DNA from: an uncultured Pelagibacteraceae bacterium
GTDB taxonomy: Bacteria; Pseudomonadota; Alphaproteobacteria; Pelagibacterales; Pelagibacteraceae
Direction of reading: 5' to 3'
Assembly: GCA_902587095.1 (NCBI GenBank)
Contig: CACIJY010000001.1
Coordinates: forward strand, 1-64,000
Length of the DNA stretch: 64,000 nucleotides
Positions 33,943 to 36,375 of this stretch are shown here, one piece after another. Position 1 is the first letter of the stretch. Every line of letters starts with the position of its first letter. The position numbers and the translations under genes are program-made. The notes under the pieces were generated by a model. That model was not told the origin of the DNA. It searched no databases and was given only the letters and a program-made list of their open reading frames with translations.

Positions 33943-34638
33943 ATGTCTAAAAATAATTTAAATCAAAGAAATAAAATAGAAGATTTTTTATTTAAATCTA
34001 AGTTTGATTACGAAAATCAACCAATTAATAGATTGAAAAAAGTTGAAATAATTCAAAATAAACAAGAGTTGTTAAAAAAACTAAAACTAAAAATTGAAAA
34101 TTTGAAAGATTGTGAACTAAAAAATAATGCTAACAAAATTGTATTTAGTGATGGTAACGAAGATAGTTCGGTAATGATTATAGGTGAAGGACCAGGTCAA
34201 AAAGAAGATGAGCTAGGTAAACCGTTTGTGGGTGATGCGGGTATATTATTAAATAAAATGCTTGCAGCAATTAATTTAGACAGGAAAGATATTTATATTA
34301 CAAATGTTGTTAATTACAGGCCTCCTTCAAACAGAAAACCTGAAATGAAAGAAATTAAAAGATATTCTGAATATTTATACGAACACGTTGAAATTATTAA
34401 TCCAAAAATGATTATTCTACTTGGTAGTACAGCTATGGAAGCTTTTTTTGGATCAAATTTAAAAATATCAAAAGAAAGAGGTATTTGGAAAGAAATACTT
34501 ATCAAAAATAAAACCTTTTTGACAATGATAACTTTTCATCCAGCATATTTACTAAGACAAGCTGATCAAAAAAAATATTCTTGGTTAGATTTAAAAGAAA
34601 TAAGAAAGAAAATTGATGAACTTAAAATCAATATTTAA
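33943..34638 (+). CDS. uracil-DNA glycosylase, family 4-like
   Basis: MIIGEGPGQKEDELGKPFVGDAGILLNKML, ITNVVNYRPPSNRKP, TFHPAYLLR. Confidence 0.88.
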   Translation: MSKNNLNQRNKIEDFLFKSKFDYENQPINRLKKVEIIQNKQELLKKLKLKIENLKDCELKNNANKIVFSDGNEDSSVMIIGEGPGQKEDELGKPFVGDAGILLNKMLAAINLDRKDIYITNVVNYRPPSNRKPEMKEIKRYSEYLYEHVEIINPKMIILLGSTAMEAFFGSNLKISKERGIWKEILIKNKTFLTMITFHPAYLLRQADQKKYSWLDLKEIRKKIDELKINI

Positions 34639-35212
34639 AGGTATTCAAAATATTGCTGGCGTAGATGAAGTGGGTAGAGGCAGTTTAATAGGACCAGTTT
34701 ATGCATCTGCGGTTATATTAAAAAAAAACTGCGATGTTAAAAAATTGAAAGACTCAAAAAAATTAACAAAAAAAGAGCGTGAAGTTTTAAACAAATATAT
34801 AAAAAAAAATTCGTACTGGTCTATCGGTTCTGCATCAAAAGAAGAGATAGAGAAACTAAACATTCTAAATGCCTCTTTGTTAGCTATGAAAAGAGCTATA
34901 AAAAAATTAAAAAAAAAACCTCATTTGGTTTTAGTTGATGGTAACAGAATTCCGGTAATGAAAAATTATAATCTAAAATATGTAATTAAGGGTGATCAAA
35001 AAATACCTCAAATCTCAGCAGCCTCAATAGTTGCTAAAGTTTCTAGGGACAGTTTGATGAAAAAAATATCAAAGAATTTTTCAAAATATCAATGGAATAA
35101 AAATTGTGGATATGGAACAAAAGTTCATATTCAAGCAATTCGAAAATTCGGTGTAACAAAGCATCATAGAAGAACTTTCAAGCCTATACACAATATATTG
35201 AGTCCAAGATAA
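34616..35212 (+). CDS. rnhB: ribonuclease HII
   Basis: AGVDEVGRGSLIGPVYASAVIL, DSKKLTKKER, AASIVAKVSRD. Confidence 0.95.
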   Translation: MNLKSIFKGIQNIAGVDEVGRGSLIGPVYASAVILKKNCDVKKLKDSKKLTKKEREVLNKYIKKNSYWSIGSASKEEIEKLNILNASLLAMKRAIKKLKKKPHLVLVDGNRIPVMKNYNLKYVIKGDQKIPQISAASIVAKVSRDSLMKKISKNFSKYQWNKNCGYGTKVHIQAIRKFGVTKHHRRTFKPIHNILSPR

Positions 35213-35250
35213 TAATAGACACAATTAATTCAAAATAATTCAATCATGAG

Positions 35251-35279
35251 TTGACGTAGAGTCATGCCTAGAGTCTAAT
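35251..35279 (+). promoter_or_regulatory. ccrM promoter with embedded GANTC sites
   Basis: TTGACG 35251-35256, 17-nt spacer, TCTAAT 35274-35279; GAGTC at 35259-35263 and 35271-35275; ATG at 35293. Confidence 0.72.
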
Positions 35280-35292
35280 TATCTTTTTAAAA

Positions 35293-36375
35293 ATGGAAAA
35301 GTTAAACTTAAAAAATAAAATTATTAATGGGGACAGTCTTAAAGAGCTAAAAAAAATCCCTAAAGAAACTTTCGATTTAATCTTTGCAGACCCGCCTTAC
35401 AATTTGCAATTAAAAAATCAACTCACTAGACCAGACAGATCTAAAGTGAGTGCAGTAAATGACAAATGGGATCAGTTTGAAAGCTTTAAAAAATACGATG
35501 ACTTTACATATGCATGGCTTGATGAATGTAAAAGAATTTTAAGAAAAAATGGAGCTATTTGGGTAATTGGTAGTTATCACAATATTTTTAGAGTTGGATC
35601 GGTTATTCAAAATTTAGGCTTTTGGATATTAAATGATGTTATATGGAATAAAAAAAATCCAATGCCTAATTTTAGAGGAACAAGATTTACTAATGCCCAT
35701 GAAACTTTAATTTGGGCATCGAAATCTGAAAAGTCTAAATACACTTTCAACTATCAATCTTTAAAATGTTTAAATGACGATCTTCAAATGAGATCTAACT
35801 GGGAGTTACCGATTTGTAATGGTTCTGAAAGACTAAAAAAGAATGGTAAAAAAGTGCATTCTACCCAAAAACCTGAGGCTCTACTTCACAGAATTTTATT
35901 AGCAACAACAAATAAAAATGATTTTGTTTTAGATCCTTTTTTAGGATCAGGAACAACGGCAACAGTTGCTAAGAAATTGGGAAGAAATTATTATGGTATT
36001 GAAAAGGAGAAAATCTATTTTAATGCAGCTGAGCAAAGGTTAAAAAAAACAAAACCTATAGAAGATGATTATTTAGATACTCTTCAAAATGGAAGATCTA
36101 AACCAAGAATACCTTTTGGCTCATTAGTTGAGTTAGGAATAATTAAACCAGGAACCACTATATACGATAATAAAAAGAAAATTAGTGCAAAAATAATGGC
36201 TGATGGGAGTATTAAGCATGAACAAACAGAAGGTTCAATTCATAAAGTAGCAGCCACAATTTTAGGAGCTGAAAGCTGCAATGGTTGGACTTTTTGGCAC
36301 TACAATTTTAACGGTAGCATTGTACCTATTGATCACTTAAGACAAAGACTAATATCTAGTAATCAAATTTTATAA
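35293..36375 (+). CDS. ccrM: CcrM-type DNA adenine methyltransferase (predicted GANTC)
   Basis: DPPYNLQL catalytic motif, [21 protein letters not shown] motif, CcrM-like C-terminal extension [24 protein letters not shown]. Confidence 0.94.

Follow-up and report, generated by a model that had tools for sequence, protein, structure and literature searches.

Described Systems

Methylation autoregulation of ccrM has been proposed in Caulobacter. The Caulobacter ccrM promoter is activated by CtrA and is sensitive to methylation; by analogy, the promoter described here would share with it the tie between ccrM transcription and the cell cycle, but CtrA, the Caulobacter activator of ccrM, is missing from Pelagibacter (PMC7987155, PMC2877005).

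The Caulobacter promoters ctrA P1, mipZ and podJ P2 have GANTC sites in or near the -10 and -35 elements and a sigma70-type -35, and are controlled by CcrM and GcrA. GcrA binds N6-methyladenine (m6A) GANTC and recruits RNA polymerase (PMC3667746); it acts on sigma region 2 and stimulates open-complex formation at methylated promoters (PMC7403470). Caulobacter start sites with GANTC between the -10 and the -35 are a known promoter class and make up one temporal group, and only 11 of the 96 cell-cycle start sites with GANTC carry more than one (PMC4287350). The promoter described here differs from these in that the gene is ccrM and that two sites lie at fixed distances from TTGAC, one of them on the -10.

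Control of ccrM by GcrA has already been predicted across the class, with ccrM as a core GcrA target, and is said to have been lost in the Caulobacterales (PMC7987155). That prediction concerned the same gene, regulator and motif, conserved across orders; motif presence was scored from -200 to +100 with position expressly ignored (PMC7987155). What the present analysis adds is the position, namely a fixed geometry in the core promoter, together with the length of the leader and the variant seen in SAR11. No prior description of the fixed two-site geometry on the ccrM core promoter across the class, of the one-base shift into the -10 in Pelagibacter or of the short leader was found in the open-licence literature.

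The gcrA promoter of A. tumefaciens also has clustered GANTC sites and an activity affected by methylation, possibly directly through sigma; it differs in the gene, in having six sites in 250 bp and in the sign, which is repression (PMC11514494). The interplay of m6A, GcrA and sigma70 at the -10 has so far been studied mainly on Caulobacter promoters of variable layout.

Anatomy of the ccrM Promoter

The window is the whole stretch of DNA that was analysed (64,000 nucleotides); its close relatives are uncultured Pelagibacteraceae (SAR11). Features around the ccrM promoter are given below in window coordinates, with counts from 136 distinct ccrM loci of the genus aligned on TTGAC.

34613-35212, + strand: rnhB (RNase HII; Pfam RNase_HII), the upstream neighbour, start codon uncertain
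35239-35245, + strand: genus-invariant TTCAATC box, directly upstream of the -35
35251-35256, + strand: -35 element TTGACG (TTGAC invariant in 136/136 genus promoters; upstream of ccrM in 61/79 other class genera)
35257-35273, + strand: spacer of 17 nt, read directly from the sequence
35259-35263, + strand: GANTC site 1 (GAGTC), within the spacer at offset 8 counted from TTGAC
35271-35275, + strand: GANTC site 2 (GAGTC), covering the first two bases of the -10
35274-35279, + strand: -10 element TCTAAT with a non-consensus C at -11 (TCTAAT 134/136, TCTACT 2/136)
35286-35292, + strand: predicted transcription start at about 35286 and 7-nt leader, placed from the -10 geometry
35293-36375, + strand: ccrM, GANTC adenine methyltransferase of 360 aa (Pfam N6_N4_Mtase and RAMA)

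The gene, which begins with ATG at 35293, is a full-length CcrM orthologue, as had been proposed from the open reading frame; it has the N6/N4 methylase domain and a C-terminal RAMA domain, and its best PDB match is CcrMI (6pbd, residues 9-353, E 8.9e-139). Upstream it is flanked by genes for uracil-DNA glycosylase and RNase HII, and downstream by genes for an FAD protein, a MutY-like glycosylase and DciA.

The original prediction placed here a near-consensus promoter, TTGACG-N17-TCTAAT, with one GAGTC in the spacer, another overlapping the -10 and a leader of about 7 nt, and all of its coordinates match the sequence. The methylatable adenines lie at about -26 (top strand) and -24 (bottom strand) in site 1 and at -14 (top) and -12 (bottom) in site 2. 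The term near-consensus does not suit the -10, as TCTAAT has no A at -11, and a standard promoter scan, which requires that A, did not list the ccrM promoter. The assignment of the -10 is nevertheless backed by homology, since every promoter of the genus (136/136) and of the class layout (30/30) has T at position 28, counting from the first T of TTGAC. An alternative -10, TAATTA at 35276-35281, would need a 19-bp spacer and is less likely, given that the base at its end is variable.

The 64-kb window has about half of the GANTC sites expected (88 seen, 163 expected), which fits the depletion published for the Alphaproteobacteria (PMC3973325). Pattern searches in 11 genomes of the genus placed the layout with its TTGAC -35 almost exclusively at ccrM; at other genes these searches, by which genome-wide occurrence was judged, gave scattered matches only, little above a reversed-pattern control. 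With GANTC rare in the window and the layout nearly confined to ccrM, the placement of the two sites exceeds chance.

Conservation within the Genus

The spacer between the -35 and the -10 has one length in all 136 promoters. Both GAGTC positions are conserved among relatives, as the original prediction required: site 2 is GAGTC in 135 of the 136, and site 1 is GANTC in 130, at offset 8 (37 promoters) or offset 9 (93). At offset 8 the central base of site 1 is C in 19 promoters, G in 10, A in 4 and T in 4. When changes were counted on a ccrM coding-sequence tree, the G, A, T and C columns of this group underwent 0 changes and the N column 3, with mostly 4-11 in the flanking columns. Because all four central bases and two registers occur while GA and TC are kept, this pattern is the signature expected of selection for GANTC as opposed to a single fixed word. 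In site 2 the N is fixed, and the site lies inside a longer invariant block, T-N-GAGTCTA-N-T, so a core-promoter constraint is mixed in there.

Layout across SAR11, the Order and the Class

Among 79 non-SAR11 alphaproteobacterial genera (one genome each, from different families, with no correction for phylogeny), the region upstream of ccrM held TTGAC in 61, the spacer site in 40, the -10 site in 35 and both sites in 29. When only the sequence after TTGAC was shuffled with dinucleotides kept, both sites were found in a mean of 0.10 genera and in at most 2 over 500 runs. Other TTGAC words in the same loci carried the GANTC pair in 0 of 148 cases in the class and 0 of 578 in SAR11.

In 30 class promoters the distance from the first base of TTGAC to site 2 is exactly 19 bases. 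Every one of them carries A at offset 24 and T at offset 28, which makes a CANNNT -10 spaced by 17 bp, and the C of this -10 is also the final base of GANTC. The central base of site 2 is A or C across the class, and that of site 1 varies too. A third GANTC lies 14-20 bases upstream of TTGAC in 36 of the genera. Within the order, the sister family shows sites at offsets 8 and 19 in its genera g2 and g4, as in TTGACCTC-GATTC-TATTTT-GAATC-ATATT, and only the one at offset 19 in g3; the third GANTC is retained in all three genera, 14-15 bases upstream of TTGAC. Relative to the class, site 2 in the genus of the window is one base further downstream, so that its C replaces the A at -11, and the TTCAATC box stands in place of the upstream GANTC near -50.

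Other SAR11 genera vary. One or both sites are lost in g5 (L240, L241) and g7 (L238, L239), where the -10 is kept as TCTATT or TTTATT; these two genera are natural test cases for a methylation switch. The spacer site is the only one in g6 and is also present in g8 and g9, and g8 has a further site at offset 25. As far as these genomes go, the two-site element is strongly but not universally retained.

The layout had been taken for a simpler version suited to a minimal genome. That view is not supported, as the 29 class genera that share it have mostly larger genomes. Given its occurrence before ccrM in these genomes, its fixed geometry and the empty controls, the two-site layout is, on comparative grounds, ancestral to much of the class, and it seems to be an ancient form of self-sensing control instead of a shortcut taken in minimal genomes. 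The fixed geometry offers a concrete ancestral target for the joint action of m6A, GcrA and sigma70 at the -10.

The short leader also appears to be widespread. With start codons assigned by alignment and start sites predicted, +1 falls 0-3 nt from the ATG in 18 of the 34 class promoters with a -10 site (e.g. L171, L181, L202, L214), and a leaderless or nearly leaderless ccrM mRNA thus appears common in the class.

GcrA as the Candidate Reader

The original prediction described the promoter as a switch without a regulator. In a search that used a fast first look and included incomplete assemblies, GcrA was found encoded in 35 of 41 relatives and in 39 of 40 near-complete SAR11 genomes, and it is present in relatives whose CcrM is 96-99% identical. 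The genome of the window (69% complete) gave no GcrA match. The match of its contig C20 to the 3.4-kb gcrA region of a close relative covers only the initial 343 bases and stops there with the contig, about 1.2 kb before gcrA; because the contig stops short of the expected place of the gene, the absence is best read as a probable assembly gap. SAR11 GcrA aligns with Caulobacter GcrA in the DNA-binding part (5yiu), the sigma-binding part (5yix) and the full chain (7ye1). The presence of GcrA, together with its published action, makes a regulator-free switch unlikely as the default reading. Gating by methylation is plausible from the position of the sites in the core promoter, and the sites are under selection as GANTC.

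Loss of the sites and loss of GcrA were not correlated in SAR11; GcrA is kept in g5 and g7, the genera with lost sites. The sites are thus not indispensable, and the presence of GcrA does not track them.

Model and Alternatives

Conserved GANTC sites within the core promoter, as found here, are one feature expected of a GcrA/CcrM-responsive promoter. We consider it probable, with real room for doubt, that this is a sigma70 promoter of ccrM which responds to methylation through GcrA and CcrM and has two CcrM targets in its core. The anatomy, the conservation of the sites as GANTC, the ancestral class-wide layout and the occurrence of GcrA in the clade come from the present analysis. GANTC is methylated in Pelagibacter, and ccrM is not named among the unmethylated regulatory sites in the main text of the methylome paper (PMC9516812).

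In the model, CcrM would methylate both core-promoter sites and replication would turn them hemimethylated. GcrA, the likeliest reader, would bind the methylated GANTC sites and sigma70 region 2, speed open-complex formation and so help polymerase open a -10 that has no A at -11. Transcription of ccrM would then follow the methylation state, and hence the replication state, of its own locus. Activation by methylation is favoured over repression by full methylation, given the weakness of the -10 at -11 and the descriptions of GcrA chiefly as an activator; with the opposite sign the promoter could act as a homeostat. The GcrA/CcrM model has to accommodate results that count against it, namely that g5 and g7 keep GcrA despite their lost sites, that 50 of the 79 class genera are without the full pair by the strict test and that methylation represses the gcrA promoter of A. 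tumefaciens even in an E. coli host, where GcrA is absent (PMC11514494). If methylation of the two sites does control ccrM, then one small promoter lies on the path that times genome methylation in SAR11, the most abundant bacteria of the ocean, which have no CtrA.

A broader form of this reading is put forward only tentatively. Here the layout would be an ancient sensing element of the class, through which CcrM senses its own product at the edge of the -10 and in the spacer of a promoter that is often leaderless, with sigma70 itself as part of the reader; the one-base shift in Pelagibacter, by replacing the A at -11, would have made the promoter strongly dependent on methylation and on its reader.

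A direct switch without a regulator seems rather unlikely. In that case m6A at -14/-12 and -26/-24 would alter sigma70 contact or melting by itself, and the promoter would act as a homeostat, with ccrM transcription lowered by full methylation and relieved by replication. Site 2 does touch the -10 itself, in SAR11 as in the class, but GcrA is present and is known to read such sites. Sigma70 is not known to read bases in the region of the spacer site, although that site is conserved. A precedent comes from the same A. tumefaciens promoter, whose activity is lowered by CcrM methylation in E. coli, a host without alphaproteobacterial regulators (PMC11514494).

It is improbable that the promoter is a replication-timed sensor without homeostasis, in which activity is limited to the hemimethylated state, or to one hemimethylated strand, and ccrM fires once per passage of the fork. 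Such behaviour is reported for Caulobacter ctrA P1, which needs hemimethylated GANTC and acts via GcrA (review PMC8116508), and methylation in Pelagibacter is lower near ori, consistent with delayed remethylation (PMC9516812). However, ftsZ is most active when fully methylated (PMC8116508), so the sign cannot be transferred between promoters. A sensor of this kind overlaps the GcrA/CcrM model and differs from it in sign and timing.

That the GAGTC words are parts of the core promoter or a site of another protein, with methylation irrelevant, is very unlikely: site 2 is indeed an invariant longer word with a fixed N in the genus, and the invariant TTCAATC box makes it probable that another factor acts here, but the variation in site 1 falls precisely on N and on the register, which leaves it a GANTC, the central bases of both sites vary across the class, and TTGAC elsewhere does not bring GANTC along.

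The TTCAATC Box and the gcrA Promoter

Over the 136 genus promoters, the columns of the TTCAATC box (alignment columns -12 to -6) underwent 0-1 changes, against 5-26 in most neighbouring columns. With 35251-35254 the box forms an imperfect inverted repeat, TCAA-N7-TTGA, at 35240-35254. Of 11 genomes, 8 contain the pattern TTCAATC-N4-GTTGA a single time, at ccrM, and 3 contain it twice; the box was not seen in the other SAR11 genera examined. Its invariance, the repeat formed with the -35 and its near uniqueness to ccrM in each genome suggest that a second regulator, specific to the genus, acts here, perhaps in competition with polymerase.

At SAR11 gcrA promoters no GANTC was found within 110 bp upstream, so the two genes do not form a mirrored loop. 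SAR11 gcrA is preceded by paired boxes, most often 31 bp apart, that resemble the NrdR consensus ACACWATATWTWGTGT (16/16 in L274); such boxes lie outside the window, for example in L269 (1454-1500), L274 and L248. NrdR is encoded in 7 of the 7 near-complete SAR11 genomes searched, and in this clade there may be a link between GcrA and nucleotide pools.
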